Shown one piece after another: positions 5,937 to 26,434 of a DNA stretch of 26,434 bases. This stretch comes from a virus. The number at the start of each line of letters is the position of its first letter. The first letter of the stretch is position 1. Location of the stretch: positions 1 to 26,434 of the IMG/VR virus record IMGVR_UViG_3300004806_000084, one strand, 5' to 3'. Below the pieces are notes generated by a model. The model was not told the origin of the DNA, made no database searches, and was given only the letters and a program-made list of their open reading frames with translations. The translations under genes and the position numbers were made by a program.

Positions 5937-7722
5937 AACCGGCAAAAAGGGTGTCGTCACCCGGCACCACGGTGTTCGAGTGATTCGCAACCGGGAAACG
6001 GCTCCCAAGTCCAACGTCCCCGCCACCGCTCCCGGCGTGAAGGATGTTCCCGCCATCCAGGCACCCGCCGGCAAGGCGGCGGCCCTGGTGCGCGGCGGCA
6101 CGACCAGCGGCACGCCCGGCCAGATCGTCCGGTTCTGGAACCGCTGGCGGGAAAACTACAATGCGCTGACGGCGCTCACCATCGCCCGCGTCCGTTCGCT
6201 GAATGAAATGACCCAGCGCGGCGACCATGCCTACCCGCAATGGACGTATCGCACGATTGAACGCCGGCACCCGGTGCTGAAGGCGCTGATCGACTGCTGC
6301 GAGGCTCCGCTGGAAAACATCAAGTGGGATGTCCGGATCAAGGAACAGTTGCCAGAGGGTTTCACGGAAGCCGACGCGGAAAAACAAAAGGCGGCGCTCA
6401 AGGCGGCTTACGGCCAGATTGATAATCTGCGCGAGGCGCTGAAGCATCTGTCGCACGCGGATTTTTCCGGCTACGCCCATTGCCAGAAACATTACCTCGA
6501 CGGCGAGGTGGTGCATCTGGAGCCGCTCTTCACCTTCTGCGTCTGCCGCGACGGTTTGTTTGGCGACTGGTTTTGGAATCCTGATTCCCGGTCCATGACC
6601 GCGCCGGAGTTTGTCCTGTCCGAGAAAAACCGGATCGGCGGCGACAACCTGCCGCGCCTGGATTTCATCATCCGCGAAGTGGAGCGGCCCATCAACGAGA
6701 TCGGGCTGGAAAATTTCGTGCGGCGCAAGCTGATCGAAAAAGACTGGTCCGCCTTCGATGAGATTTTCGGCATCCCGTCCGGCGTGGTCATCATGCCGCC
6801 GGGCATCCCCAAGGAGCTGGTCGCCGAATATGAAGCCTCGGCGAAACAGATTTCCGAGGGCGGCAGCGGCGCGATGCCGCACGGCAGCGATTACAAGAAG
6901 AACGATATGCCGCACGACGGCTCGGCGCTCTTCAAGACGCATATCAGCTCGCTGGATGAAGACCTGGTGCTGGCTGGCACCGGCGGCAAGCTGAAGATGT
7001 TGGTGGAACACGCGGCCGGCGGCGCGGGCGGCGGCGGTGGCAATGTGCGCGGCAGCAGCAAGACGCAGGACGACACCTTCAAGGAAATCGCGATGGCGCG
7101 CGGCAATGATGTGGCGCAGCAGTTCCGCCGGGATTTTGACAATCCGTTCCTGACGGGAAAATTTCCACTGCAGCCGGTGCTCGTGGAATTTTGCCTGGTG
7201 ACGGAAAACGAGGTGGACGTGTCCGCGATCTGCACCAACGTCAACACGCTCAAGCAGGCCGGGAAAAACGTGAAGACGGATTTCATCGCCGCGCAGACCG
7301 GCTATGAATTTGAGGCTGACACCGTGCCTCCGAATCCGGACGCCAATAAACTGCCGCTGTCCGAGGATGAACTTGAGCCGGCTCCCGGCGACACGCTGGC
7401 GATGACGCAGTTAAAAAACCGGCTGCGGGTTCACAATCGGACGTTGGTGCCGGCGGCCGCCACCGCGCCAGAAGATCTCGGCGCGACCCTGCATGAGATG
7501 ATCCTGCCGCTCATCGCGCGCCTGGAAAAGATCGCGGCGATTGATGATCCCGGCATCCAGCAGCACATGATTGAAAAGCTGCTGGCGGACTATCCGCAGA
7601 TTTCGGCCGCCATCACCGCCGACGATTCGCTCGCCAAAAAACTTTCGCCGCAACTGGAGTCCGCGCTGATCGCGGGCCTGACCACCACCAAACCGGCAAC
7701 CAAGGAAAAGGTGACCGCATGA
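5929..7722 (+). CDS. Portal protein, Mu gp29-like (DUF935)
   Basis: A 597-residue portal, which would form the dodecameric ring at one capsid vertex through which DNA enters and leaves. Start chosen at ATG 5929 (MSKTGKKG) because GGAGG lies five bases upstream; a GTG at 5851 is the alternative. After a disordered basic N-terminus (1-60), the core carries the DUF935 pattern: QWTYRTIERRHPVLKAL, then CEAPLENIKWDVRI, then YLDGEVVHLEPLFTF. Late in the protein there is a Gly-rich loop (GGAGGGGGNVRG) followed by KTQDDTFKEIAMARGNDVA, as in this family. Just past it is a region that could be the clip or crown. The C-terminal 100 residues are helical. It overlaps the next gene by ATGA. Confidence 0.88.
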   Translation: MSKTGKKGVVTRHHGVRVIRNRETAPKSNVPATAPGVKDVPAIQAPAGKAAALVRGGTTSGTPGQIVRFWNRWRENYNALTALTIARVRSLNEMTQRGDHAYPQWTYRTIERRHPVLKALIDCCEAPLENIKWDVRIKEQLPEGFTEADAEKQKAALKAAYGQIDNLREALKHLSHADFSGYAHCQKHYLDGEVVHLEPLFTFCVCRDGLFGDWFWNPDSRSMTAPEFVLSEKNRIGGDNLPRLDFIIREVERPINEIGLENFVRRKLIEKDWSAFDEIFGIPSGVVIMPPGIPKELVAEYEASAKQISEGGSGAMPHGSDYKKNDMPHDGSALFKTHISSLDEDLVLAGTGGKLKMLVEHAAGGAGGGGGNVRGSSKTQDDTFKEIAMARGNDVAQQFRRDFDNPFLTGKFPLQPVLVEFCLVTENEVDVSAICTNVNTLKQAGKNVKTDFIAAQTGYEFEADTVPPNPDANKLPLSEDELEPAPGDTLAMTQLKNRLRVHNRTLVPAAATAPEDLGATLHEMILPLIARLEKIAAIDDPGIQQHMIEKLLADYPQISAAITADDSLAKKLSPQLESALIAGLTTTKPATKEKVTA

Positions 7723-7988
7723 GCCGCGCCGACAAAATCAAAAAACTCGCCAACGCCATCCGTGAATATCGCGGGCTGCGCGAACCTGGCACCGGTCGCT
7801 GGATTAACTCGCCCCGGCCGGCGGCCGGCGAGCGCGTGGTGAAATGGCTGGGCGAGCTGGGCCGGAACGTCGCGGCGGATTTCCTGGAGATCAACTCCTT
7901 CACCAAGGTTTCCGAGTTCAACGCCTGGCTGAAGAAATTGGAGCAGCCCGTCAACCCCTGCGTTGAAAATAAAAAGGCCACCGCATGA
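7719..7988 (+). CDS. Small protein of unknown function, 89 aa
   Basis: Overlaps the portal gene at its start and the protease gene at its end, both by ATGA. It is basic at the N-terminus (MSRADKIKKLANAIREYRG) and has a central Pro/Arg loop and a helical C-terminus. No domain is recognised. In Mu-like phages a gpF-type minor head protein usually lies between portal and protease; here that slot holds only this short gene. A gpF-like C-terminus is found further on, at 11989-12795. It could be a remnant or substitute for that slot. Confidence 0.7.
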   Translation: MSRADKIKKLANAIREYRGLREPGTGRWINSPRPAAGERVVKWLGELGRNVAADFLEINSFTKVSEFNAWLKKLEQPVNPCVENKKATA

Positions 7989-9145
7989 ATCTCACCATTC
8001 TGAATCGTGACTGCAAACATCCTGAAGATGGTTGGTATCCCATCGAAGGCAAAGGTTACTTTCCCGGCATCGCGGATGACGGCCGCAAGATCGTCCAGGT
8101 GATTGATGACAAGGCCATCACCAGCATCGTGAACCGTTTCAACAGTGCCGCCGCCCGCTCCGCCCTGCCGCATGGGAGCGAGATGCTGATCGACCGCGAA
8201 CATTTCCGCCATCACCGCGATGCCACCGGCCAGAAGGATATGGACAGCGCCGCCTACGGCTGGATCAAGCAGCTTCGCGTCGCGCCGGCCGGCGATGGTT
8301 ACCAGATGAAAAACCGCTGGACGGGCGTCGGGCAACAGGCGGTGGACACCGGCATCTACCGGTTTGTCTCCACGGAATATGACGAGACGAATCCCGGTGA
8401 CGTTTGGGAGCCGGTGGCACCGGCGGACCTGCCGACCGAGATCAAAAACAAATACCCTGCCGCCGATGGCTGGGAATATATGCGGCCGCTGCAGCTCACC
8501 GGCCTCTCGCTGACCAACGACAACAACAACAAGGGCGTGAAGCCGCTGACCATCCTGAATAAAACCACTTTCGCCGGCGACATGCCGGCGGACAGCACAG
8601 CAAACAAACAACCAAAGAACAAAAAAATGAAAACAGTCTGCACCCTGCTTGGACTGTCCGCCGACGCGGATGAATCATCCGTTCACGCGGCAGTTACAAG
8701 CCTCAAAAACCGCCTCGTCGTCCTTGAGCCGATGGAAGCGGAAGTGACCACGCTCAAAAACCGCAACACCGAACTCGTCGGCGAGCAATGCGACGCCCTG
8801 ATGGACGCGCATGGCCTGAAGACGGACGCGCCCCAGCGTGTCACGCTCAAGCCGGTTTTGATCGGCATGAAGAACCGCGCCGACCGGGTCACGTTCCTCA
8901 CGGAATGCGTCAGCAAGCCCACGGCCCCGGCCGCCGGCAAACTGCAGACGCAGTTGCACAATCGTGACACCAAGCCGCCCGGCACCGCCGGCGCGGGTGC
9001 CGGTGTCGAAACCGACGAGAAGGCGCAGCAGGCGCTGTCCGTCAAAATCCGCAACCGAGCCAACGAACTGCGCGCCGGCAAACACCTCTCGTTTGACGCC
9101 GCGTGGAACCAGGCCAAACAGGAACTCACCCCGGCCGCCGAGTAA
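7985..9145 (+). CDS. Prohead protease with fused scaffold, Mu gpI-like
   Basis: A 386-residue protein combining a head-maturation protease (about 1-200) with a C-terminal scaffold region. The protease half shows the Mu gpI pattern in order: LIDREH with His73, AAYGWIKQLRV, a WTG turn (112-114), and YRFVSTEYDE with Ser129 as likely nucleophile. It ends at a typical LTGLSLTN segment. From residue 215 the sequence is helical and charged (VVLEPMEAEVTTLKNRNTEL), as expected for scaffold that is digested after assembly. An A-rich leader precedes an internal in-frame ATG at 8627, so the scaffold may also be made alone, as gpZ is from the Mu I gene. It overlaps the previous gene by ATGA. Confidence 0.85.
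   Translation: MNLTILNRDCKHPEDGWYPIEGKGYFPGIADDGRKIVQVIDDKAITSIVNRFNSAAARSALPHGSEMLIDREHFRHHRDATGQKDMDSAAYGWIKQLRVAPAGDGYQMKNRWTGVGQQAVDTGIYRFVSTEYDETNPGDVWEPVAPADLPTEIKNKYPAADGWEYMRPLQLTGLSLTNDNNNKGVKPLTILNKTTFAGDMPADSTANKQPKNKKMKTVCTLLGLSADADESSVHAAVTSLKNRLVVLEPMEAEVTTLKNRNTELVGEQCDALMDAHGLKTDAPQRVTLKPVLIGMKNRADRVTFLTECVSKPTAPAAGKLQTQLHNRDTKPPGTAGAGAGVETDEKAQQALSVKIRNRANELRAGKHLSFDAAWNQAKQELTPAAE
8601..8626 (+). promoter_or_regulatory. Internal A-rich translation leader
   Basis: Inside the protease gene, the stretch before the internal ATG is almost pure A and C (CAAACAAACAACCAAAG then an A run), like the leaders before the cement, capsid and tail-tube genes. The codons give a low-complexity Asn/Lys/Gln linker. 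There is no Shine-Dalgarno site. Confidence 0.6.
8627..9145 (+). CDS. Internal-start scaffold protein (in frame with protease)
   Basis: The in-frame ATG codes for residue 215 of the protease-scaffold protein and would give a 172-residue product (begins MKTVCTLLGLSADADE). The product is helical with a Leu/Glu/Lys-rich coil, then a Gly/Ala/Pro linker and a C-terminal helical segment (VKIRNRANELRAG) of the kind that binds capsid subunits. In Mu the I gene makes the Z scaffold by exactly this arrangement. Evidence here is the leader identity and the domain break at that residue. Separate expression is an inference. Confidence 0.55.
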   Translation: MKTVCTLLGLSADADESSVHAAVTSLKNRLVVLEPMEAEVTTLKNRNTELVGEQCDALMDAHGLKTDAPQRVTLKPVLIGMKNRADRVTFLTECVSKPTAPAAGKLQTQLHNRDTKPPGTAGAGAGVETDEKAQQALSVKIRNRANELRAGKHLSFDAAWNQAKQELTPAAE

Positions 9146-9670: not shown

Positions 9671-10633
9671 ATGGCAGCTAATTCAACACTCGGCAGCGCA
9701 ACACTGAATTATCAGTTGACCGCGTATGCCCAAGGCCTTTGGAACGACCTCGCGGACGTGACCAAGCTGGCTGAACGCCTGGCTCCCACCACACCGGTTC
9801 CCGGTGCGGCCGGCCAGTTCAAGAAATTCGACGACAAGAATTCGTTCTTGCCGGAGAAAACCGCCCGCGCCCAGGGCAGCGACCCGGTCCTGATCGGGTT
9901 TGCGGCCTCGGACGACACCTACGCCTGCCGCCCGCAGGCGCTGGAAGTGCGCGTGGACAAGACCGAACTCCAGGCCGCCGGCGTGGAAGGCGGCGACGTG
10001 GCCAACGACCTGCTCGACCAGGGCAAGATCAAGGCGCTGCTCAACAAGGCGGCGCTCTCGCACGTTCTGGACGTCTGCACGGCGGTCATCGCCAACACCA
10101 ACGCCGTGGCCGGCGTCGGCAACTGGAGCAATCCGGACATCGATCCGATTGACCAGATTGACGCGCAGCTCCTCCAGCTCACGCAGGATTGCGGCAGCAC
10201 GCAGAACATCAAGCTCACGCTCGACGTGGCTTCGTGGAATGCGCTGCGCAACCATCCCAAGGTGAAGGCCCGCGCGCTGTTCGGCGCGGCCTCCGCGCTG
10301 TCGAGCATCAGCACGGACCAGCTCAACTCGGCGTTGATCTTCCCGTGCGACATCATGGTCGCGAACATCGTGTATGATCAGGCCCGTCTGGCGCAGGCGG
10401 CGAACAAGGCCCGCGCGCTGGCCAACACCTGCCTCCTGCACTACTCGGTGCCGGGCGCGACGCTCTACGATCCGAGCGCGTTCAAGGCGTTCACCGTGGG
10501 CGGTGCCGGGTTCCTCGGCAACGTCTATACCTACCAGTCGTTGAACAACCTCTGGCGCGGCCACTTGGTGGACTGGAGCCGGGACATCAAGCAGACCAGC
10601 ACGCTCTCCATGCGCCGGCTGGCCATCAACTGA
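9671..10633 (+). CDS. Major capsid protein
   Basis: A 320-residue protein that fits an HK97-fold capsid subunit by size, place and composition. The N-terminal arm (Leu, Ala and Gln-rich, about 1-45) leads to a loop with GQFKKFDDKNSFLPEKT. The rest is mixed alpha/beta with typical capsid segments: KALLNKAALSHVLDV, a QIDAQLLQLTQ helix, LTLDVASWNALRNHP, and a C-terminal region with VGGAGFLGNVYTYQSL. It is downstream of protease, scaffold and cement genes, and a very strong hairpin follows its stop. Capsid identity is nearly certain from context; the exact family (one of several E-like groups) cannot be named from sequence alone. Confidence 0.85.
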   Translation: MAANSTLGSATLNYQLTAYAQGLWNDLADVTKLAERLAPTTPVPGAAGQFKKFDDKNSFLPEKTARAQGSDPVLIGFAASDDTYACRPQALEVRVDKTELQAAGVEGGDVANDLLDQGKIKALLNKAALSHVLDVCTAVIANTNAVAGVGNWSNPDIDPIDQIDAQLLQLTQDCGSTQNIKLTLDVASWNALRNHPKVKARALFGAASALSSISTDQLNSALIFPCDIMVANIVYDQARLAQAANKARALANTCLLHYSVPGATLYDPSAFKAFTVGGAGFLGNVYTYQSLNNLWRGHLVDWSRDIKQTSTLSMRRLAIN

Positions 10634-10705: not shown

Positions 10706-11215
10706 ATGAAATTCACATCTCTTAAAAAAGGCGGATTCACCCTGGTGCAGTTGCTCCTGGTGATCTGCATCATCGGCATCCTCGCCGCGCTGGCTTTGCC
10801 GGCCCGCGCGCAGGTGACTCCCACCACGCTGACCGGGCTGACCAACGCCAATGTCCAGGTCATCCCGTCCGCCACGTTGGTCGCGACGACAAACATCATC
10901 CCGCTCACCAAAAAGAGCGGGGTGAGTTTCTCGCCGATCTTCAACGCCTCCACCGGCACCGGCAGCGCGGTGTTTTACATCGCGCCCACGGGCAACGGCA
11001 CCAACTATGCCGCGCCGGCTTATCCCGGCACAAATGCCTGGACGGTGACGCAGGCCGCCAACGGCACCACGACGGTGACCGGATTTGCCAACTGGAGTCC
11101 GGCCCAGCTCGCGGGGGTGGCGGCGCTGAATGTGTATGCCATCAGCAACGGCACCGGCGGCATCCTCACCAACCAAGGCTCGGTGTTCAACCGGGTCGCC
11201 GAACCGGCGTATTAA
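10706..11215 (+). CDS. Pilin-like (prepilin N-terminus) protein within the capsid block
   Basis: A 169-residue protein whose first 35 residues are a near-perfect type IV prepilin or pseudopilin N-terminus. KKGG is followed by FTLVQLLLVICIIGIL and AALALPA, with cleavage expected after Gly10. The invariant Glu at position 5 of the mature protein is Gln here (Gln15). The segment also ends in a good signal peptidase I site, ARA-Q (33-36). The rest (VTPTTLTGLTNANVQ onwards) is a Thr/Asn/Gly-rich beta-type body without disulfide Cys and with several NGT motifs, unlike the usual pilin head. It has its own A-rich leader, and hairpins flank it on both sides. Location between capsid and connector genes suggests a virion or exported phage part. 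Function is unknown. Confidence 0.8.
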   Translation: MKFTSLKKGGFTLVQLLLVICIIGILAALALPARAQVTPTTLTGLTNANVQVIPSATLVATTNIIPLTKKSGVSFSPIFNASTGTGSAVFYIAPTGNGTNYAAPAYPGTNAWTVTQAANGTTTVTGFANWSPAQLAGVAALNVYAISNGTGGILTNQGSVFNRVAEPAY

Positions 11216-16253: not shown

Positions 16254-17972
16254 ATGATTCACGATTTACGATTGACGATTAAACGCGTGCTGCTGCTCGC
16301 CTTGTTTTTTTTCGCACTCCGCACTCCGCCTTCCGCATTAGGAACGCCCTGCATTTATTCCGCCAACAATTTTCTGTGGGCCTATGGCTTCGGTCCCAAC
16401 CCGCTGACCAACGCCATCTCCATCCAGCCGGTTTATTCCACGCAGGTGACGATCTATGGCACCAACCTCATCACCGGCGCGGCGCAGACGGTTAATCCCG
16501 ACACCAACGGTGTGGCGCAGTTTAATCTCTATCCCAACAGCTACCTGCTGCAGATCGCGGGCCTGAACTATTCGCTGCCGTTCAACGTGCCGGACCAGAC
16601 CAACGTCCTGAACATCGGCCTCGCGGCTCCGGCGGTGGGCACCTACACCTATACGAACAATTCCAACTTCCGGGTGAACGGCTCGCCGGGGGATAATTAT
16701 CCCGGCACGCTGACGGAAAAAATCCTCGCGGCCAACGGGCTGCTGCTGACCACCAACAATGTGGGTGGCAACCTTTGCCTGCAGCTTGCGCTGCCGGCCG
16801 GCCTGCTCTACGCCAACGCCACCAACACGGTGATGACCGCCCTCGGCGCGCAAATCAATGGCGCGAGCAATGTGCTCGAATCGCAGATTTACACCTTTCT
16901 GCCGAATGGCACCAACAACATCGGGAGCGCTGGCAATCCCTACGGCACGCAGAACAACATCGCGTTCGGTGGCACCAACAACACCTGGCCGGTGTGGCCG
17001 GCTTACAACAGCGCCATCATCGGCGGTCGCGGCAACCAGGTGTCGGGGCAGAACGTGACGCCGGCCAACGAGGCGCTGGGAATCTTCTGTGGCATTGGCG
17101 ACCTGATCCAATGGCCCTGTTGGAACTCGCAAATCATCGGCGGGATGTTCGACACCTTGTCGGCGAACACCGGGACGGTGATCGTCGGTGGCACGAACTG
17201 CACCGCCGGCGGTTTTGGTTACTTCAATCTGGTTTTGGGCGGCTACAAGAATCAGGTCGGCGGCTGCAGTTATTCCATCGCCGCCGGTGCCGGCGCGGTC
17301 GCCAACCAGAACAGCACGTTTGTTTGGTCGGACAGCCAGGGCTTGACCAACAACTTCACCACCACGGCCCCGGACGAGTTCCTGATCCGGGCGCGCGGCG
17401 GCGTGGGCATCAACACGAACAATCCCGGAACCAACGCGCTGGAGGTGGCCGGCAATGCGGACTTCGCGAACGCCAGCATCAGCGGCGTCAGTATGTTCAC
17501 GCTCTTCAGCACCACGGCCGTTAGTAATGCGCTCTCCGTTATTTGGAATTACAATTTGAATTCCGTCAGCAACGCGCTGCAGGTGCAGATCACGGCGGTC
17601 AGCAATGCGACGGTCACGGCGAGCAACACGCTCGCGGCCCGGCTCGCGGCCACCAACGCCGCGCTCGTGGCGCTGGTGCAGACGACCTCCAACAGTTTCG
17701 CCGCCAACATCGGGCCGGCCAAGGCGCTGACCGCGACCGTGCCGGCCACTTACAGCAGCATCGGCATCGGCTTCAGCACGCCGCTCATGCCGGATGGAAA
17801 TTATTCCGTGACGCTCACGCCCCAGGACCAGGCCACGGCGGAAGCGCCCTTGAACGGCATCGTGTGGTGGGTTGGTTCCAAGAATGCCAGCGGCTTCACC
17901 ATCTACACTACTTACGCGACCAACGCCTACAACCTGAACTTTGAATGCCAGGTCAAAGAGAACACCCAATAA
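16254..17972 (+). CDS. Tail fibre-like protein with signal peptide (fibre 1)
   Basis: A 572-residue protein. Residues 1-30 form a signal peptide-like start (MIHDLRLTIKRVLLLALFF then SALG-TP), its n-region encoded by 7-bp repeats. A beta domain follows (about 50-120, shared in pattern with fibre 2: TNG...NLYPNSYLLQ...SLPFNV...TNVLNI). Next come stalk-type repeats like YadA/Hia heads (SAIIGGRGNQVSG, SQIIGGMFDTLSAN, FNLVLGGYKNQVGG) with VGINTNNPGTNALEV typical of phage fibres. A coiled coil (440-490) and a C-terminal lectin-like beta domain complete it. A trimeric fibre or adhesin is likely. The signal peptide on a phage fibre is odd. Confidence 0.7.
   Translation: MIHDLRLTIKRVLLLALFFFALRTPPSALGTPCIYSANNFLWAYGFGPNPLTNAISIQPVYSTQVTIYGTNLITGAAQTVNPDTNGVAQFNLYPNSYLLQIAGLNYSLPFNVPDQTNVLNIGLAAPAVGTYTYTNNSNFRVNGSPGDNYPGTLTEKILAANGLLLTTNNVGGNLCLQLALPAGLLYANATNTVMTALGAQINGASNVLESQIYTFLPNGTNNIGSAGNPYGTQNNIAFGGTNNTWPVWPAYNSAIIGGRGNQVSGQNVTPANEALGIFCGIGDLIQWPCWNSQIIGGMFDTLSANTGTVIVGGTNCTAGGFGYFNLVLGGYKNQVGGCSYSIAAGAGAVANQNSTFVWSDSQGLTNNFTTTAPDEFLIRARGGVGINTNNPGTNALEVAGNADFANASISGVSMFTLFSTTAVSNALSVIWNYNLNSVSNALQVQITAVSNATVTASNTLAARLAATNAALVALVQTTSNSFAANIGPAKALTATVPATYSSIGIGFSTPLMPDGNYSVTLTPQDQATAEAPLNGIVWWVGSKNASGFTIYTTYATNAYNLNFECQVKENTQ
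16256..16283 (+). repeat. 7-bp repeats over the fibre 1 start
   Basis: Three GATTNAC units (C, T and G at the variable base) and a fourth diverged unit (GATTAAA) follow immediately after the AT of the ATG. They encode the n-region of the signal peptide. Because the unit is not a multiple of three, gain or loss of one would shift the frame of the fibre gene. Confidence 0.8.
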
Positions 17973-17997
17973 GCAGCGTGACGCTGCACCCAAATTA
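17968..17997 (+). repeat. 30-bp leader repeat, copy 2
   Basis: The same 30 bases as 1376-1405, spanning the fibre 1 stop, the GCAGCG/CGCTGC hairpin and ACCCAAATTA. The fibre 2 ATG at 18001 follows after three bases, the same distance as in copy 1. Confidence 0.85.
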
Positions 17998-18000
17998 TTT

Positions 18001-18993
18001 ATGAAAAAAATCATCGCCATTTCCGCTTTCAGCTTTTTGCTTTCCGCTTTGGGAACTCCGGTGCTCTTTCCGCTGCAGACGATTTCCGGCCAGCCGTTGA
18101 CGGCCGGGTTCAGCATCACTCCAGACGCGCGGCTGAATCCGCAGACGGATGGCAGCAACATCTTTGGCGGCTTCCCGCTGGCGCAGCAGCGGCTGACGAA
18201 CGGCGCGGCCGTGATCAACCTGGTGCCGGGCGGTTACTCGCTGCTCGCGCCGGGCTGGACGCACTCGCTGCATTTCAACGTGAACGCCGGCACCAATATT
18301 GTCAACGTGGTCACGCTCATCACCAACCTCGCGAGTTATTTCCCGGTCACGTTCGGTGGCGGACCCGTCACCAACATTGACAACGCGACCGGAACGAATG
18401 TGGTGATTAATGATTATAGCGGAGTATTGCTTCAGGCTCCTTCATCGTCACCATACATCCCGCCTCTGTATTCAACGGTTTCGGGTGGGAATGTTGACAT
18501 AGGAACCGGACGCGATGCCATCGGAGTAGCTGGCGGTTCTGGAGGAACCGTTCAGATTGGTTGCGGAGGCGCGTCATCTATTGGACAAGGTGGTTCTGGT
18601 GGCATCGTGAAGCTGGCTATTGGTGGTAGCTTCGGTGGAACCGATGGGCAGACGACCGTTGGCTATCTCACCGCTCTTGATTTTGCGCAGTTTAATGGAG
18701 GGATAAATTTGGCTGGCGGTTTGACCGTTGATTCGTTAAGTGACGGAACAGGAACTTTCCCGGCAGCTAATGCTATTGTGACCACCAACTCGACGGTGTC
18801 AACGTCGAAACTAATTGGCGTGGTGACTAACATCATCAACTCTGTCGCCGGCGTCATCACCAATGCCGGGCTGGTCTGGTATTCGGTGAAGACGAACGCC
18901 GCCCCGAACTTCGCCGCGCCGAGCGGTTCCATCTGCACGACCACCAACGGTCAATTCTTTGTGCGTTCTAATACGGTCTGGCTGTTGAAGTAA
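18001..18993 (+). CDS. Tail fibre-like protein with signal peptide (fibre 2), Gly-rich tip
   Basis: A 330-residue protein. Start at ATG 18001 after the repeat; the longer frame from 17941 overlaps fibre 1. A signal peptide (MKKIIAISAFSFLLSALG) is followed by a beta domain matching fibre 1 in pattern (TNGAAVINLVPGGYSL ... SLHFNVNAGTNIVNV). Residues about 155-225 are Gly-rich (GGSGGTVQIGCGGASS, GGSGGIVKLAIGG), as in polyglycine-helix tips of phage adhesins. The coding DNA at about 18406-18830 is visibly less GC-rich than its flanks. This suggests a swapped tip with the anchor kept. A host-range or surface-binding role is likely. Confidence 0.7.
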   Translation: MKKIIAISAFSFLLSALGTPVLFPLQTISGQPLTAGFSITPDARLNPQTDGSNIFGGFPLAQQRLTNGAAVINLVPGGYSLLAPGWTHSLHFNVNAGTNIVNVVTLITNLASYFPVTFGGGPVTNIDNATGTNVVINDYSGVLLQAPSSSPYIPPLYSTVSGGNVDIGTGRDAIGVAGGSGGTVQIGCGGASSIGQGGSGGIVKLAIGGSFGGTDGQTTVGYLTALDFAQFNGGINLAGGLTVDSLSDGTGTFPAANAIVTTNSTVSTSKLIGVVTNIINSVAGVITNAGLVWYSVKTNAAPNFAAPSGSICTTTNGQFFVRSNTVWLLK

Positions 18994-18994
18994 T

Positions 18995-19273
18995 ATGCCT
19001 AGCGCCACAAAAGTCGTCGCCATCGCCGCCGCCATCATCTTCGCGGCCACGGTCATTCCGTTGCTGGCACCCAAGCCCGCACCGGCCGGCTATGATCTCC
19101 CGCCGTTTCAATATCCCACGAACATGGAGCGGTTCGCGTGGAGCCTTCAGAGCAGCACGGACCTGGTGACGTGGACGACGGAGATGAGTTGGCCTAGCGG
19201 CCTGGTCGCCGGCGGCGCGATCAACATCGTGCGCGACGGACAGCATAAGTTCTACCGGATGCAGGGCAAATGA
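18995..19273 (+). CDS. Small membrane-anchored protein with Verrucomicrobia-type beta repeat
   Basis: A 92-residue protein starting one base after fibre 2. It has an N-terminal membrane anchor or signal (VVAIAAAIIFAATVIPLLA, 6-24). The rest is one beta module, FAWSLQSSTDLVTWTTE ... GQHKFYRMQGK. That module (LQ-SSTDLVTW ending in FYR) is frequent in secreted proteins of Verrucomicrobiota, and fibre 3 carries a relaxed copy (YSIQTSTNILLGSAGF ... DLSRFYRA). It is likely exported and associated with the fibres. Its function is not known. Confidence 0.6.
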   Translation: MPSATKVVAIAAAIIFAATVIPLLAPKPAPAGYDLPPFQYPTNMERFAWSLQSSTDLVTWTTEMSWPSGLVAGGAINIVRDGQHKFYRMQGK

Positions 19274-19274
19274 C

Positions 19275-19436
19275 ATGAAATCCAAGACCCGCAAAATCTG
19301 TTTTGCCAGCGGCGCGAACGCCGAGGCCACGCTGGCGGCCGTGCGCGCGTATTCTGAAAACGCCTGCACCGCGCCGATCCGGCCAATCGTGGCCGTCCGC
19401 CAGGACAAATCGGCAATCGGCAATCGTAAATCGTAA
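19275..19436 (+). CDS. Small basic protein, 53 aa
   Basis: ATG one base after the previous stop; it ends eight bases before the tape-measure start. The product is MKSKTRKICFASGANAE and onwards, with two cysteines and a basic tail (QDKSAIGNRKS) encoded by 7-bp repeats. It occupies an otherwise empty stretch and follows the tight spacing of the operon, so it is probably expressed. Tail assembly chaperones often lie directly before the tape measure, but no frameshift site is seen. No family is recognised. Confidence 0.5.
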   Translation: MKSKTRKICFASGANAEATLAAVRAYSENACTAPIRPIVAVRQDKSAIGNRKS

Positions 19437-19440
19437 ATTT
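19407..19440 (+). repeat. 7-bp repeats before the tape-measure gene
   Basis: AAATCGG, CAATCGG, CAATCGT, AAATCGT and a partial AAATTT. Read on the opposite strand this is the same ACGATT-family heptamer as at the fibre 1 start (16256-16283). It spans the stop of the small basic gene and stops three bases before ATG 19444. Confidence 0.8.
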
Positions 19441-19443
19441 GTT

Positions 19444-20838
19444 ATGGCCGACAACCAACTCGACATCCTGGTCAAGCTCGGCGTCATCGGCAAAGAGGAC
19501 GTCAAGGCCGTCAACGATCTGATGGCGGAGACGAAGCAGACAACCGACAAGGTTTCTGAATCCACCGAAACCGCAAATAAGCATCATGGCGAGACGCGGC
19601 TGGTATTTACCGAGCTGAACAAAATTGTTCCCGGTCTGGGCCATGCGATGCACGCCGCGTTTGCCGGCCCGCTGGGTCCGATCATCCTGCTCGGCATCGC
19701 CATCAAGGAAACGCAGGACAAGCTCAAGGAATACAACGCTGAACTGGACAAGGTGACCGAGTCGGAGGTGGCTGAACATCAGGCGAACATTGACCGGGTA
19801 AAAACCGCTTGGACGAATGCCGCGGTGGAACTGGGAAAATATTATGCCGCGCTGGAGACGGCCGGCGGGGAAAAAGACCCCATTAAAAAACAACTGGAAA
19901 ACATCCGGGCCGTCACGGATGCCCAACTTGACTCCAGCAAGAAAATCGTCGAGGCGCTGGGCAAGCAGGAGCTGGCTTACGCCCGCGCCCACGGCGGCAG
20001 CCCGGAGCAGATCGCCGCCATCGAGGAGCGCATCCGCCGGGAGACCGAAGGTATCGACGCGCGCAAGGAATATGGTGACGGATTGGGTGAGTTGAAACAG
20101 GAGCAGCAAACCCGCGCCGCCCAGGACGCTCCACTGAAGGCGGCGGCGGAGAAAGCCCTGGCTGAATCCGCGCGCGCCAAAGACAATTTCGAGGACAACG
20201 AAGCGGAGCGCGCGAATCTTGAAAGCCAGCTTAATCCCACCACGGAGGCCGGCCAGGCGCGGCTGAAAAAAGAGCAGGAAGCCGAGGCCAAACTGGAGCG
20301 CGCGAAAAATCTGCCGGCCGGCACCATGTCGGGGGGCACCGCGCCGGCGGTGGACAACTCAATTCAAAACGCCCGCATGGTGAAAGCGGCCGAGGAAGAA
20401 ATTGAGCGAAACCGCAAGGAGCGGGAGGCCATAGAGAAGCGCCTGGCGCAAACCGCCGCCGAAGTCACGCCGCTGGAAACGGCCGCTGAATCCGCTCAAA
20501 AAAAAGCAACGGCCGCGACCGGCAAAAGTGAAACCAATCGCGCCCGGTTAAATGAATTGCCGGAAGAGATTGACCAGGCTGGCAAGGTTGAATCTGCCAA
20601 GCAACATGGCCGGGAAGTGGTGGATGCCATCAACACGCATGGTGGTAAAACCAATCAATCATTGGGCGAGTTGGCGGCAGCGGTAAAGCTGACCGAACAA
20701 CAGAAGCTGAATATCGTCGCCGGCATTTTGAACCTTACTTTGTCGTGGCAACAGGTTTGGGCCGGGCTTGAGACTCGTCTGGCTATCCAGGAGCAGGCGC
20801 TGGCGAATCTGAAATCAACGACGCACCACGCGCCATGA
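19444..20838 (+). CDS. Tape measure-like coiled-coil tail protein
   Basis: A 464-residue protein; start at ATG 19444 (MADNQLDILVKLGVIG), directly after the heptamer leader. It has a helical N-terminus, one hydrophobic segment (GPLGPIILLGIAI, about 75-87), then about 350 residues of Glu/Lys/Ala-rich coiled coil (AAEKALAESARAKDNFED; AAEEEIERNRKEREAIEKR). Length, composition and position before the hub gene fit the tape measure that sets tail length and is ejected during infection. It is short for that class, suggesting a short tail if so. It overlaps the hub gene by ATGA. Confidence 0.65.
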   Translation: MADNQLDILVKLGVIGKEDVKAVNDLMAETKQTTDKVSESTETANKHHGETRLVFTELNKIVPGLGHAMHAAFAGPLGPIILLGIAIKETQDKLKEYNAELDKVTESEVAEHQANIDRVKTAWTNAAVELGKYYAALETAGGEKDPIKKQLENIRAVTDAQLDSSKKIVEALGKQELAYARAHGGSPEQIAAIEERIRRETEGIDARKEYGDGLGELKQEQQTRAAQDAPLKAAAEKALAESARAKDNFEDNEAERANLESQLNPTTEAGQARLKKEQEAEAKLERAKNLPAGTMSGGTAPAVDNSIQNARMVKAAEEEIERNRKEREAIEKRLAQTAAEVTPLETAAESAQKKATAATGKSETNRARLNELPEEIDQAGKVESAKQHGREVVDAINTHGGKTNQSLGELAAAVKLTEQQKLNIVAGILNLTLSWQQVWAGLETRLAIQEQALANLKSTTHHAP

Positions 20839-22877
20839 ACCGCACCCTGACACTTTTCCCCTACGATGCGGCGAACAATGCTTATCGCGCCGGCGTGACC
20901 AAACCCCTGAACGATTGGGGCATCCTGGATGAGATCAGTGGCGCGCTGCGCAGCCAGACGGCCGACCAGCTCAACTTGGAATTTCCGGCCGGGGCGCTGA
21001 ACGCCGCGTCGCCCTTCATTTATCGCTCGCGCCTGCAGCTCGCAATTGACAACAAACTTTTCTTCACGGGGTATGTGGTGGACGACGTGCGCGAGTTTTC
21101 CGGCAGCGCCAACAATGGCCAGCTCGCGGTCGCCGGGCCGTGGTGGTATTTCGAGAACCTGGTCTTTCAGCAGACCATCAACATTCTGACGGGATTTAAT
21201 CCGGATAAAACGCCGATCTACACGCAGCAATATTTCACCCATTTCACGCTGAACCTGACGCGCACGCCGCAGATCAGTCCCGGCACGGCCACGCTGATCT
21301 ATGGCACGACGTATCTGAACAGCCAGGACCAGATCGCCGCCGTGCTGGATTGGGCCAAGGCCAACGGCGCTTACTTCCAATACGTCAAGGCCGACCTGAT
21401 GGCGGTGCCGGTGCTGCCGCGTGACGTGATGAACATCTCCTGCGCCGACGCGATCCGCCGGCAGATGGAGGACGTGGACGCGGTCTGCTGGTTTGACCAC
21501 ACGGTGGACCCGCCGATGTTCCGGTGCAAACAGCGGAAGGATTTGCCGGCGATCAGCCGCGCGCTGGGCGATGCGTATCAAGCCCAGGGTTTCAAGCTGA
21601 AGCGCCGCTACGATCTGGCGGTGCCGTTTGTGCGGATTTGTTTCGAGCAGGTGTCCACCTACAACGGTCAGCAGAGCATCAACCAGGTGTTTGACACTTA
21701 TCCCAACCCGCCGCCGGCGGACCAGCTCAAGGCGCTCATCACCACCGTGCCGCTGCGCGGCTATAGCGCCAGCACCACCGAGAAGTGGATCAAGACGGCC
21801 GCCTTCGATCCCAATGACCTGGCGTTTTGGAAACTGCGCAAGCCGGAGATGGACCGCAACACCAACCAGAATGCGGATGTGGAATACGCCAACCTCGCTA
21901 TCACACCCAACAGCGCCCAGCGCCAGAGCCAGTTGCCCAACATGATCATCGAGGGCGGTTATGCCGACTGGATGGGCGGGAACCACATCGAGGACAATGT
22001 CACCGCGCAGGCCACCTATGAGCGCAAGGTGACGACGACGCCGGCGGCGTCGCCTTTGCCGGGCGCGCTGCAGGTGACTTTGCCGGGCAAGAAATTATCG
22101 CAGCACACGCTGCGCACGCGCGTCCACGTCACCAATCTGAATTATCCCAACGGCAAGGCGCTGACCACGACCACGGTCAGCACGCAGGCGGAAGACCCGA
22201 ACCAGTTCCTTGGCCTCGCGCAGATCATTTACACGGACTTGAACACGCCGCAATGGGAGGGAACCATCCCGCTGTTTGAGGGCGTTTATTCCACCGGCAT
22301 TGTGCTGGGTGTGAATTTCAACCTCACCGGCGGCCTGGTGGAATATGAGACGATGAATGCGCTGGCGCAGGAAATCAGCTTCACCAGCAAGGGCGGCGGC
22401 CTGTTCTATGTCGTGAACGTCGGGGCGAATAAAAAACTTTCGCCGGGCCAGCTCGCCGACCGGCTGCGCGCAAAACGGATGGCTTACGTCACGGCATTAT
22501 TTTTCCAGCCGGCACCGGCCGGGGGCAGCAAGGTCACGCTGACGCGCGACGAGCGCCAGGACAACACCAGTGACGCCGAGCCGCAGAAGACGCAGGACCA
22601 TGTGTTCGAGAATGGCGGCGGCATTCTGCTGCAGGGGAATAACGGGCAGCCGATCTTCACCATGCAACGCTACGATGCCGGTGGCAACCCGCTGCCGGCT
22701 GGCGCGGCCGGGACGCTGGTGCTGGATTACGGCAAGCTGAAAGGCAGCGACGGCAAATGGCATGGCGTATTGCTGCAGGAACAGAAGGTCTGCCAAAAAA
22801 TTGGCGGCGTCCTGAAGCAGCGCACGGTGATTGTGCCTACTTCAGAAATCTTTCAGGCACCTGATGACCCGGCATGA
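20835..22877 (+). CDS. Tail hub/baseplate-like protein
   Basis: A 680-residue protein after the tape-measure gene. The N-terminal half (NRTLTLFPYDAANNAYRAG, SPFIYRSRLQLAIDNKLFFTGYVVD) has the strand order of tail hub proteins (gp27/gpD-like), and the C-terminal half is beta-rich (QVTLPGKKLSQHTLRTRVH; GVYSTGIVLGVNFNLTGG). Many Asn-, Gln- and Tyr-rich stretches match structural tail proteins. It should form the tail-tip hub through which DNA and the tape measure exit. No enzymatic motif is seen. The class is supported by order and length, the exact family is not. Confidence 0.6.
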   Translation: MNRTLTLFPYDAANNAYRAGVTKPLNDWGILDEISGALRSQTADQLNLEFPAGALNAASPFIYRSRLQLAIDNKLFFTGYVVDDVREFSGSANNGQLAVAGPWWYFENLVFQQTINILTGFNPDKTPIYTQQYFTHFTLNLTRTPQISPGTATLIYGTTYLNSQDQIAAVLDWAKANGAYFQYVKADLMAVPVLPRDVMNISCADAIRRQMEDVDAVCWFDHTVDPPMFRCKQRKDLPAISRALGDAYQAQGFKLKRRYDLAVPFVRICFEQVSTYNGQQSINQVFDTYPNPPPADQLKALITTVPLRGYSASTTEKWIKTAAFDPNDLAFWKLRKPEMDRNTNQNADVEYANLAITPNSAQRQSQLPNMIIEGGYADWMGGNHIEDNVTAQATYERKVTTTPAASPLPGALQVTLPGKKLSQHTLRTRVHVTNLNYPNGKALTTTTVSTQAEDPNQFLGLAQIIYTDLNTPQWEGTIPLFEGVYSTGIVLGVNFNLTGGLVEYETMNALAQEISFTSKGGGLFYVVNVGANKKLSPGQLADRLRAKRMAYVTALFFQPAPAGGSKVTLTRDERQDNTSDAEPQKTQDHVFENGGGILLQGNNGQPIFTMQRYDAGGNPLPAGAAGTLVLDYGKLKGSDGKWHGVLLQEQKVCQKIGGVLKQRTVIVPTSEIFQAPDDPA

Positions 22878-23851
22878 GCGCTTTTCTCTTTGGCGACTGC
22901 GGCTGCTGCCGGGGATCGTTGCTTTCCGGCGGTGAGGGACAGGTGGTTGTTGCCGCGTTACCATTCACGATGGGTTGGCGGCCAGATGGGGCGGGCGGTT
23001 GGGAGCCTGGTGGTGATTATCTGGCGACCTGGAGTCGGGGCATTCCTGACACGATTTACCTGACCCGCCGGACAGACTTCAAAGATGGTTATGACGGCTC
23101 GTATTTGGGATTTGTGGTTGATTCCTGGAATATTTACGGCAAAAAACCCGATTGGGCTCCTTGGCCGGTTTTGCAGTATCCTCATTCTGTCGTCCCCACC
23201 TACACCTATTCCGACCCCTACACTTATCAGCAGTGCACAAACAACGCGGTGAAGATGCTAGATCAGGCCGACCTGATAAATCCTGACCGCATCTATCCCA
23301 TAGCTGCTGCCGAGGGCGTCTGGGGCAATTCACTGCCGGTGTATCAGGCGCATTTATGTTACGGTTCAGAGAACGCCGCCTATGTTGGGTTTGGGCTGCA
23401 AACACTATTTGTTAAATACGATTTGGACGGAAATTTCTTCTACTCCACGCGAAATTTTGTGGATGGCGTGCCCGTGGGTTATTCGGCGGCGATGAATGGG
23501 GATATGCCCGCGCTGTTTGCCGCTGGCGGCACTGAAAGTAAAGCGGGCTGGGTGTATGCTCTAAAATCAGCGAACCGCCGGCCGCAAAAGTATCTATCGA
23601 GCATTTATGGGGAAGTATTGATTGGCAATGGTCCCGCTGGCGTTGGCTCTGTCGGTTATCAATCTGTCCACCCCACTCAACCAGAGGATTTGGGGCCTGG
23701 TGAGCTGCTTTTTTACCCGTCTGATGTGCCTGGTTTGGGAACGAAAAGTTGGAGCATTGATCCCGCGCCCGGCTTGCCACCCGCCAAGACCACGGCTGAT
23801 TCCACGAAAACTACCGCTGACACCACCACTGAAACCGCCGACGAACAATGA
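22874..23851 (+). CDS. Unknown tail tip protein with Cys-rich start
   Basis: A 325-residue protein overlapping the hub gene by ATGA. It starts with a Cys cluster (FGDCGCCRGSLLSG) that could bind metal, followed by an aromatic-rich beta region (GGWEPGGDYLATWSRGI; YTYSDPYTYQQCTNNAV). It ends in a Thr/Lys/Asp-rich flexible tail (TTADSTKTTADTTTETADEQ). The coding DNA is less GC-rich than the neighbours. No family is recognised. Position between hub and the last fibre suggests an adaptor or adhesin that links the two, and the composition shift suggests exchange with other phages. Confidence 0.65.
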   Translation: MSAFLFGDCGCCRGSLLSGGEGQVVVAALPFTMGWRPDGAGGWEPGGDYLATWSRGIPDTIYLTRRTDFKDGYDGSYLGFVVDSWNIYGKKPDWAPWPVLQYPHSVVPTYTYSDPYTYQQCTNNAVKMLDQADLINPDRIYPIAAAEGVWGNSLPVYQAHLCYGSENAAYVGFGLQTLFVKYDLDGNFFYSTRNFVDGVPVGYSAAMNGDMPALFAAGGTESKAGWVYALKSANRRPQKYLSSIYGEVLIGNGPAGVGSVGYQSVHPTQPEDLGPGELLFYPSDVPGLGTKSWSIDPAPGLPPAKTTADSTKTTADTTTETADEQ

Positions 23852-25257
23852 AAAAAACCATACTCATCCTCACCGTGGCCCTGGCGTCGGTCGCCAGCGC
23901 CCAAACCTCAAACCTGTTGAGCTACGTCAACACCGGTTCCGGTGCCAACACCGGCACCGGCGATCCGATGCGAACCGCGTTCGGCAAGATCAATGGCGAC
24001 TTCATGTTGCTGTCCACGATTGTGGACAGCAACACCGCCGCGATCACCGCGCTGCAAACAAACTCGGGTGCCGGCGGCGGCGGTGTCACCAACTTCGTCC
24101 TGACGGTGACAAACCTGCCGGCTGGCAGCGCGGCCACGGCCACGAACACTGGTGTCGTGGGCGGCATCGCCTACGTCACCATCGGGATTCCGGCCGGCTC
24201 CAATGGTGTCGCTGGCAGCAATGGCACCAACGGCACGCCTGGCACCAACATAATCACGGCTTACAACCTCACGAACTCGGTTTTGCAGAGTCATAAATCG
24301 ACGACTTTTGCCACCAACAATATCACTTGGGGAACCTCGAATTTCTTGGCGCGGGTCGCTGGCCTTTGGGACTGGAGTTTGAACTATGGTGTGCTGGGCG
24401 GTAGCGGCCAATATCCGCCGACGAATGTCTGGGGTCAATTGTCAGGCAGCTACACCGGCACGAATGGCTGGTTTGTCCTCACGAATGGCTTCACGACCAC
24501 GAACACTATTTCCGTCAGTTCGCGCAGTGCCGGGGGAGGTTTGGGCTTCATTTCTTTATTTGCGATTGATCATCCTGAACTGGTTGGCCGAACCAACTGG
24601 ATGGATTATCAGACCATTGGCAGCAGCGTTGCGCCGACCGCCGGCTGGCAGTTTGTGAACAAGGATTATGTGGACACGTCTGTCGCTATCCTGAAGTCGG
24701 GAAACTTCGCCAGTTCCTCCGACACAAACGGCGTCTATCATTACAGCTATTCCGTCAACGGCACGACCGTTTTCGACCTCTGGAATTCCATTGGTTTTAT
24801 CCCGATTATTTCCATCACTTTTGATGGGACTGGAACCAACGTCGTGCTGGCTATCACCCAGACAAACTTGATGGCTGGCTACTCGATCCAGACCTCGACG
24901 AATATCCTACTCGGATCCGCCGGCTTTACCACGTTCACGAACTACATTCTTTCCACCAACAGTGGGGTTGTCAGCTTCACGACGCCGCTCAATGGGAATG
25001 ACCTGTCGCGGTTCTACCGGGCCATCTATGGTGTATCGGCGGGGGTGAATGCTTACAGCTCGGTCGCGGCCTACGCCGGCACACTTTACCCATCAAATAC
25101 TTGGAGCTTTTCGGCGATAACGAACACGATGAGTGACCGGAGTTATTGGACTGGCAGCAGCAACGGCGCGGCACTGGTAACGCTATGGCGGTCAAATAGC
25201 GCGGTTTATTACATCGTCCAGAGCAATGCTGTCAGTTTGAAGATACCCGCGCCGTAA
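23848..25257 (+). CDS. Tail fibre-like protein with signal peptide (fibre 3), collagen-like stretch
   Basis: A 469-residue protein overlapping the previous gene by ATGA. Residues 1-18 are a clear signal peptide (MKKTILILTVALASVASA, cut before Q). Directly after it comes GTGDPMRTAFGKINGDFMLL, the motif seen at the N-terminus of many phage fibres (G-D-x-x-R-x-A-F-x-K-I-N). Then a short collagen-like run of about six triplets (GSNGVAGSNGTNGTPG), a beta-rich stalk, and a C-terminal region that includes the STNILLG...FYRA module seen at 18995. So it combines a virion fibre start with an export signal. Confidence 0.75.
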   Translation: MKKTILILTVALASVASAQTSNLLSYVNTGSGANTGTGDPMRTAFGKINGDFMLLSTIVDSNTAAITALQTNSGAGGGGVTNFVLTVTNLPAGSAATATNTGVVGGIAYVTIGIPAGSNGVAGSNGTNGTPGTNIITAYNLTNSVLQSHKSTTFATNNITWGTSNFLARVAGLWDWSLNYGVLGGSGQYPPTNVWGQLSGSYTGTNGWFVLTNGFTTTNTISVSSRSAGGGLGFISLFAIDHPELVGRTNWMDYQTIGSSVAPTAGWQFVNKDYVDTSVAILKSGNFASSSDTNGVYHYSYSVNGTTVFDLWNSIGFIPIISITFDGTGTNVVLAITQTNLMAGYSIQTSTNILLGSAGFTTFTNYILSTNSGVVSFTTPLNGNDLSRFYRAIYGVSAGVNAYSSVAAYAGTLYPSNTWSFSAITNTMSDRSYWTGSSNGAALVTLWRSNSAVYYIVQSNAVSLKIPAP

Positions 25258-25831: not shown

Positions 25832-25888
25832 TGTTCTCCCGCCGAACCCGCCGCCACGGAGCACACCGCCAGCCGTTCAGATTTCAAC

Positions 25889-25908
25889 GGCTGACCAGCA
25901 GGTCAGCC
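25889..25908. repeat. 8-bp perfect hairpin
   Basis: GGCTGACC, loop AGCA, GGTCAGCC. It belongs to the same string of inverted repeats between the regulator and the heptad gene; the gap from 25680 to 25976 otherwise holds no gene I can support. Confidence 0.65.
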
Positions 25909-25925
25909 CTACCGCCGCCGCGCCC

Positions 25926-25944
25926 ATTCTACGCAATGTAGAAT
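25926..25944. promoter_or_regulatory. Inverted repeat before the heptad gene
   Basis: ATTCTAC and GTAGAAT are perfect inverted arms around GCAAT, 32 bases upstream of ATG 25977. It is A/T-richer than its surroundings, so it is a candidate operator or promoter-proximal site. Confidence 0.35.
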
Positions 25945-25976
25945 CTGAGTTCTCGCTTCCCGCCCAAACCGCGCTC

Positions 25977-26434
25977 ATGCTGCGTTTTGTGAGCTTAATT
26001 GCCACAAATCCAGTCACGGCCCCCGCCCCCGGACCATTCCGCGCCGCCAAGCAGTCATTCCGCGTCGCCAAGGAATCATTCCTCGGCGCCAAAAAATCAT
26101 TGCTCGGCGCCAAGGAGTCATTTCGCGTCGCCAAAAAATCGTTCCGCGTCGCCAAGGAGTCATTGCTCGGCGCCAAAAAATCACTCCGCGTCGCCAAGGA
26201 GTCATTGCTTGTCGCCAAAAAATCGCTCCGCGTCGCCAAGCAATCATTGCTCGTCGCCGGCGAGTGGCTCCGCGTCGCCAAAAAATCATCCAGAGCCGGC
26301 CTGCCTTTCACCGTCCACCACCTCGAAACCAGGTTTCCCGTGGTTTTCGATGGAATCGGACAGTTTGCGAACCGGCTTTTGCCCGGCTCTGAAGGAGCCA
26401 AGGAAATTAGCCGGGGGCAAGCCGCCGGCGCCGC
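25977..26434 (+). CDS. Heptad-repeat helical protein, runs off the window (partial)
   Basis: A frame opens at ATG 25977 and has no stop up to the end, giving at least 152 residues. After a short N-terminus, residues 21-104 are twelve consecutive heptads of type (F/L)-x-(V/G)-A-K-(K/E/Q)-S, with a hydrophobic first and an Ala fourth residue, as in a coiled coil. From about 8 heptads the KES and KKS ends alternate, so the true unit is 14 residues. After the repeat a different, possibly globular sequence begins (AGLPFTVHHLETRFPVVF). The minus strand carries an open frame over the same DNA, but base changes between units are mostly silent in the plus frame. Function is unknown; it may be host or phage. 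Confidence 0.6.
   Translation, partial: MLRFVSLIATNPVTAPAPGPFRAAKQSFRVAKESFLGAKKSLLGAKESFRVAKKSFRVAKESLLGAKKSLRVAKESLLVAKKSLRVAKQSLLVAGEWLRVAKKSSRAGLPFTVHHLETRFPVVFDGIGQFANRLLPGSEGAKEISRGQAAGA
26037..26288 (+). repeat. Twelve 21-bp tandem repeats
   Basis: Twelve units of 21 bases, each like CGCGTCGCCAAGGAGTCA plus a TTC/TTG/CTC codon. Units with AAGGAG and AAAAAA alternate through most of the array, showing a 42-bp higher-order unit. Units 10-11 are diverged (GCCGGCGAG in unit 11). Confidence 0.95.

Follow-up and report, generated by a model that had tools for sequence, protein, structure and literature searches.

Assembly of the virions of tailed phages is taught as a wholly cytoplasmic process. 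In filamentous phages, by comparison, the coat proteins pIII and pVIII carry Sec leaders and are added outside the cytoplasm, with the virions being extruded through the envelope. Literature reports of leaders on phage proteins concern endolysins and envelope proteins of the Lom type. Lys44 of phage fOg44 is a secreted endolysin with a genuine Sec leader (PMC6116005), while Lom of lambda is a leader-bearing outer-membrane protein whose gene lies between tail genes (PMC12309495). No report of leaders on the fibres or capsid-associated proteins of tailed phages was found in the part of the literature covered. The proteins described here share with Lys44 a Sec leader and, presumably, export before lysis, but are putative virion parts rather than lysis enzymes. 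With Lom they share a leader and a gene in the tail region, but Lom is a β-barrel envelope protein, whereas these are fibre- or jelly-roll-like. With pIII and pVIII they share the leader and, as proposed below, addition outside the cytoplasm, although here the virion is the packaged icosahedral capsid of a tailed phage. The likeness to the fibres and tailspikes of tailed phages (PHROG families; T4-type gp9) lies in the attachment motif of fibre 3, a conserved N terminus with a variable C terminus, and a place in the late block, with clear homology in one relative (L079); the Sec leader, however, is absent from all of the other-host homologues that were checked. The components are of known kinds, and what is new is the leader, its breadth and its place.

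The window analysed spans the whole of an IMG/VR record (26,434 bases) that is probably a fragment; coordinates are on the plus strand unless stated otherwise. Among its genes are those for a lambda-like terminase, portal, protease and major capsid protein, the last of which (9671–10633; PHROG major head protein, E=1e-33; relatives 60–73% identical) has no leader. The closest capsid relatives in bacterial genomes are 68% identical and come from metagenome-assembled genomes of Verrucomicrobia subdivision 3, which makes a verrucomicrobium the very probable host. A tape-measure-like coiled-coil protein (19444–20838) was assigned from its position and its resemblance to the counterpart in relative L006, a family search having given no match. 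Upstream of the terminase, a lipoprotein, a YaeF-type permuted papain-like enzyme and a membrane protein are encoded consecutively (859–2756), a probable lysis cassette. An ORF at the right end (25877–26401, minus strand) encodes a short repeated peptide (SLATRNDFLAPSND...) and resembles a repetitive tract.

Sec signal peptides had been claimed for fibres 1, 2 and 3 in the preliminary description, and these were indeed present at the three ORFs, whose starts are well placed. The n-, h- and c-regions of Sec leaders were seen at the N termini of all three proteins and of the small protein encoded at 18995–19273, and the window genes show the form typical of Sec export and signal peptidase I: a positive n-region, a hydrophobic core and an A-x-A-like site. 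For leader calling, a home-made rule set took the place of SignalP, and 6 of the 29 window genes were marked, namely, fibres 1 to 3, the gene at 18995, the gene at 10706–11215 and the lipoprotein gene at 859–1380. The earlier observation is larger than stated, as the leader-bearing gene at 10706–11215, directly after the capsid gene, had been missed. The same caller passed 40 of 850 internal Met positions (4.7%) and 15–28% of shuffled fibre N termini of the same composition. Because of these rates the leaders are only suggestive from the window alone, and relatives were therefore needed; it is comparison with them that makes the case solid. Close relatives of fibres 1, 2 and 3 were not found in scans of viral contigs, nor were any of fibres 1 and 3 in the phage collection, and conservation was for this reason followed via the capsid gene. 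No Pfam or PHROG model matched fibres 1 to 3, and no family library recognised them.

Fibre 1 (572 aa; 16254–17972) begins with a leader of 30 residues, MIHDLRLTIKRVLLLALFFFALRTPPSALG (16254–16343), and fibre 2 (330 aa; 18001–18993) with one of 18 residues, MKKIIAISAFSFLLSALG (18001–18054). Both leaders end in ALG and are predicted to be cut before TP. The leader and the N-terminal domain that follows are common to the two fibres (33% identity over 113 residues, E=2e-10), after which the sequences diverge; a weak trace of this domain was also detected in L006. Likewise, the N-terminal part of the L008 protein is 65–68% identical to those of L009 and L010 over 80 residues, followed by divergence. 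A common N terminus joined to differing C termini is the usual anatomy of virion fibres, with a fixed attachment end and an exchangeable tip, and the description of fibres 1 and 2 as fibre-like is supported by this anatomy as read from sequence.

Fibre 3 (469 aa; 23848–25257) has a well-placed start that overlaps the upstream stop by 4 nt, and its leader, MKKTILILTVALASVASA (23848–23901), is predicted to be cut before QT. The motif D-x-x-R-x-A-F-x-K-I-N, which had been noted after the signal peptide, was confirmed at residue 39. Just after the leader lies a gp9-type virion-attachment motif (VNTGSGANTGTGDPMRTAFGKINGD; 23926–24000), with residues 27–51 aligning to the N termini of gp9-type proteins, including those of Prochlorococcus phages. 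The stretch immediately following the leader, VNTGSGANTGTGDPMRTAFGKINGDF, can be aligned with the beginning of cyanophage gp9, the baseplate wedge tail fibre connector, and with the starts of baseplate or hypothetical proteins from phages of Rhizobium, Sinorhizobium and Bradyrhizobium. Fibre 3 is therefore supported as putatively fibre-like by its gp9-type N terminus. Since the gp9 and baseplate homologues begin at the motif, without a leader, the fibre 3 leader looks like something added ahead of a canonical virion-attachment end.

A corresponding case is found in L079, where the protein encoded at 6398–8641 is, judged by its matches, an unmistakable, textbook tail fibre (PHROG tail fibre, E=1e-25) with the leader MLKKFSLLFAAALTLSVPLHA, cut before Q. 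It carries NPHSVTK-QVGLGNVDNTSD repeats, and similar stretches occur in 536 phage records. No leader was called in ten annotated homologues from other hosts, comprising phages of Acinetobacter (two), Gordonia, Sinorhizobium, Synechococcus, Flavobacterium, E. coli, Tsukamurella and Janthinobacterium and one crAss-like phage. With the gp9-type set included, the leader was absent from all 16 other-host homologues checked. Relatives starting after the hydrophobic segment had been named as evidence that would refute the preliminary reading, and the outcome is split: the equivalents from other hosts start leaderless at the motif, and the Verrucomicrobiota relatives keep a leader. The leader accordingly has the look of an extension added before canonical virion-attachment ends in the Verrucomicrobiota host lineage. 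Among the control phages lambda, HK97, crAss001 and Cellulophaga phi12:1, the caller marked 3 of 91 genes, none of them a fibre gene: one encodes Lom, one a lysis-regulatory protein and one a lipoprotein in the lysis region, beside the amidase gene.

Leader-bearing fibres or tailspikes were found in at least 14 other Verrucomicrobiota phages or prophages, and most of the relatives examined carry leaders both on fibre proteins and on the small post-capsid protein. The fibre-like proteins concerned are 250–940 residues long (L002, L003, L005, L006, L008, L009/L010, L016, L017, L020, L022, L026, L079, L083, L084, L087 and L089). Their genes usually follow that of the presumed major tail protein and precede that of the tape measure. 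In L017 and L020, however, they belong to the head block and not to the tail block, which counts against the explanation favoured below. Fibre-family models matched the proteins of L005, L079 and L083 (PHROG tail fibre for L005 and L079; collagen repeats, Pfam E=2e-8, for L083), and a LamG-type domain is present in the L016 fibre. The proteins of L009 and L010 resemble polysaccharide-degrading tailspikes by sequence pattern; the predicted structure of the L010 tailspike had a mean pLDDT of 31 and was not used. Cysteine counts of 10–12 in L008 to L010 suit an oxidising compartment but prove nothing. Among the L006 fibres, a leader-bearing protein of 447 residues (reverse complement of L061, 10941–12284) is, from its look, possibly an SGNH/GDSL-type esterase.

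The gene directly after the capsid gene (10706–11215) was characterised from a 15-sequence alignment, a structural model and fold searches, and is taken to encode a small exported β-sandwich protein of 169 aa. Its leader (10706–10810) is MKFTSLKKGGFTLVQLLLVICIIGILAALALPARA, then cut before Q, with a prepilin-like hydrophobic stretch followed by an A-x-A site. A leader was found on the post-capsid gene in every relative with a capsid about 48% or more identical and a readable next gene; in L011, no clear gene was found after the capsid gene. The caller marked 15 of the 15 aligned relatives, which include the near duplicates L009 and L010, while it marked 1 of 102 other structural orthologues (terminase, portal, protease, decoration, capsid and others). 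Within the alignment, the −3,−1 rule always fits before an invariant Gln, the site being (A/S/V)-x-(A/G) in the forms ARA, SFG, AQA, SKA, AHA, ASA and VHA. The hydrophobic stretch, in contrast, is exchanged: three sequences (window, L016 and L018) have one that resembles a type IV prepilin helix, and the other relatives have an ordinary one. Since this stretch is exchanged while the A-x-A-like site before Gln stays, export is deduced to be what is kept. In more distant prophages, too, a small gene with a leader lies at this position or close to it (L030, L034, L036, L044, L051 and L052), and none was seen there in some others (e.g., L022–L025, L028 and L037). Across the Verrucomicrobiota phages compared, leaders of typical form are shown, as far as can be read from sequence, to be conserved though their sequences are replaced.

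Prepilin-like leaders with the A-x-A-like end before Gln occur at 10706–10810 in the window, 11042–11146 in L016 and 1819–1926 in L018, which gives the impression that pilin leaders of the host were taken over to serve as ordinary signal peptides. The L016 protein passes the TIGR02532 cut-off. A type IV pilin or pseudopilin assignment for 10706–11215 was nevertheless rejected, as the G-F-T-L-x-E prepilin-peptidase leader was not found: Gln replaces Glu5 in the window, and the Gly preceding Phe is lost in L016 and L018. The NCBIfam and PHROG matches were weak, confined to the N-terminal helix and below the pilin cut-offs. The predicted structure is a β-sandwich (mean pLDDT 78), and fold searches with the model weakly retrieved TNF/C1q-like jelly rolls. 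Since the TM-scores were mostly below 0.5, only a fold class, a weakly indicated jelly roll, is claimed. A profile of the protein found few chromosomal homologues, and the protein is too variable for a contig scan.

The leaders are best explained as working Sec signal peptides on accessory virion proteins, that is, on fibres or tailspikes and on a small jelly-roll protein beside the capsid gene, a reading to which we give about an even chance. Export of the leader-bearing proteins appears well supported, and we infer that the exported proteins join virions. The accessory proteins would be produced late and sent to the periplasm, where, after cleavage at A-x-A (or ALG), they would fold and oligomerise, some being cysteine-rich. 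Attachment to tails and heads would follow at or after lysis, when the two compartments mix. Late joining of this kind would be feasible, as in vitro addition to particles is possible for P22 tailspikes and for T4 decoration proteins. Somewhat more tentatively, split-compartment assembly may be a general strategy of Verrucomicrobiota tailed phages, with heads and tails made in the cytoplasm and the receptor-binding fibres and capsid-associated jelly-roll protein passing through Sec, maturing in the periplasm and being added at or after lysis.

The preliminary description had named three outcomes, namely, display on infected or lysogenic cells, receptor blocking and assembly on the outside. The last agrees best with what follows the leader, namely, a conserved domain in fibres 1 and 2 and, in fibre 3, a motif for virion attachment. 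Display on lysogens is least supported: the fibre genes follow one another head-to-tail within the block of late structural genes, signals resembling promoters or terminators are not clearly above chance there, and family searches of fibres 1 to 3 recognised neither an outer-membrane anchor nor a sorting domain (lipobox, autotransporter barrel or PEP-CTERM). Export signals on phage fibres and a capsid-adjacent protein throughout a host phylum would mean either a second assembly site or phage-made surface proteins annotated as tail fibres. Leader-bearing fibres bear on fibre annotation and on the prediction of phage hosts from fibres.

The second of these meanings is the main rival, which we consider possible without thinking it probable: the exported proteins would not be virion parts but would work on the infected cell's envelope or beyond it, in receptor masking or removal, degradation of surface polysaccharide, phage exclusion or surface adhesion. 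Lom is a precedent, being a leader-bearing envelope protein encoded among tail genes (PMC12309495), although no match to an outer-membrane β-barrel family of this kind was found for fibres 1 to 3. The resemblance of the L009 and L010 proteins to polysaccharide-degrading tailspikes suits an envelope function as well, as does the place of the 18995 gene just before the tape-measure-like gene, the position of the HK97 moron gene 15. The rival is kept alive by several relatives that encode long leaderless tail-tip or fibre proteins after the tape measure, which as alternative receptor binders could be the only ones in the virion. Against it stand the absence of a recognised anchor, the location inside a late block without clear promoter-like signals of its own, the attachment motif that follows the fibre 3 leader, and the body of the L079 protein, which is that of a standard virion fibre.

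A second alternative, which seems improbable, is that the hydrophobic segments are translated but left uncleaved as membrane or virion anchors, for example, as an inner-membrane tether of the signal-arrest-release type or as hydrophobic tail patches. The prepilin-like leader at 10706 could stay transmembrane, as a prepilin helix normally stays in the membrane, and so could the small protein at 18995. Short h-regions of about 10–15 residues followed by A-x-A, present in 15 of 15 post-capsid relatives, are instead typical of cleaved leaders. The 18995–19273 gene lies directly upstream of the tape-measure-like gene and has a well-placed start 1 nt after the fibre 2 stop. It had been described as encoding a small membrane-anchored protein; the hydrophobic N terminus is there, and may either be cleaved or stay as an anchor. 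Positional counterparts occur in L006 (reverse complement of L061, 12281–12625) and L022 (18241–18594). A small protein with a hydrophobic N terminus directly before the tape measure was seen in several of these phages, in the place of the HK97 gp15 moron. The comparison with gp15 is by position alone, and gp15, unlike the 18995 protein, was not called leader-bearing.

That the leaders are artefacts of wrong start codons or of mistakenly translated hydrophobic low-complexity repeats is very improbable: repeats do code the start of the fibre 1 protein and the hydrophobic part of the fibre 2 N terminus, and shuffled N termini pass the caller at the rate given above, but the start codon of fibre 3 is coupled to the stop codon of the gene upstream, and leaders recur at the same place in independent relatives while the other-host controls have none.

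The repeats themselves include one of 7-nt period (GATTNACGATT...), with 5 matches against 0.01 expected. It lies at 16256–16280 (plus strand), covering the first codons of fibre 1, and recurs inverted at 19408–19439 (minus strand), in the gap before the tape-measure-like gene. That leader sequence may come from host repeats was not borne out, as the repeats were rare in the two host genomes searched. Repetitive sequence also codes the hydrophobic stretch or n-region of several leaders, at 18028–18044 in the window (fibre 2), at 14142 in L026, at 12886 in L020 and at 16247 in L006, the leader peptides so coded being FSFLLSA, YWLLVIGLLATCHLPLATC, LLPIAWCLLPIA and KVQSPKSKVQ.
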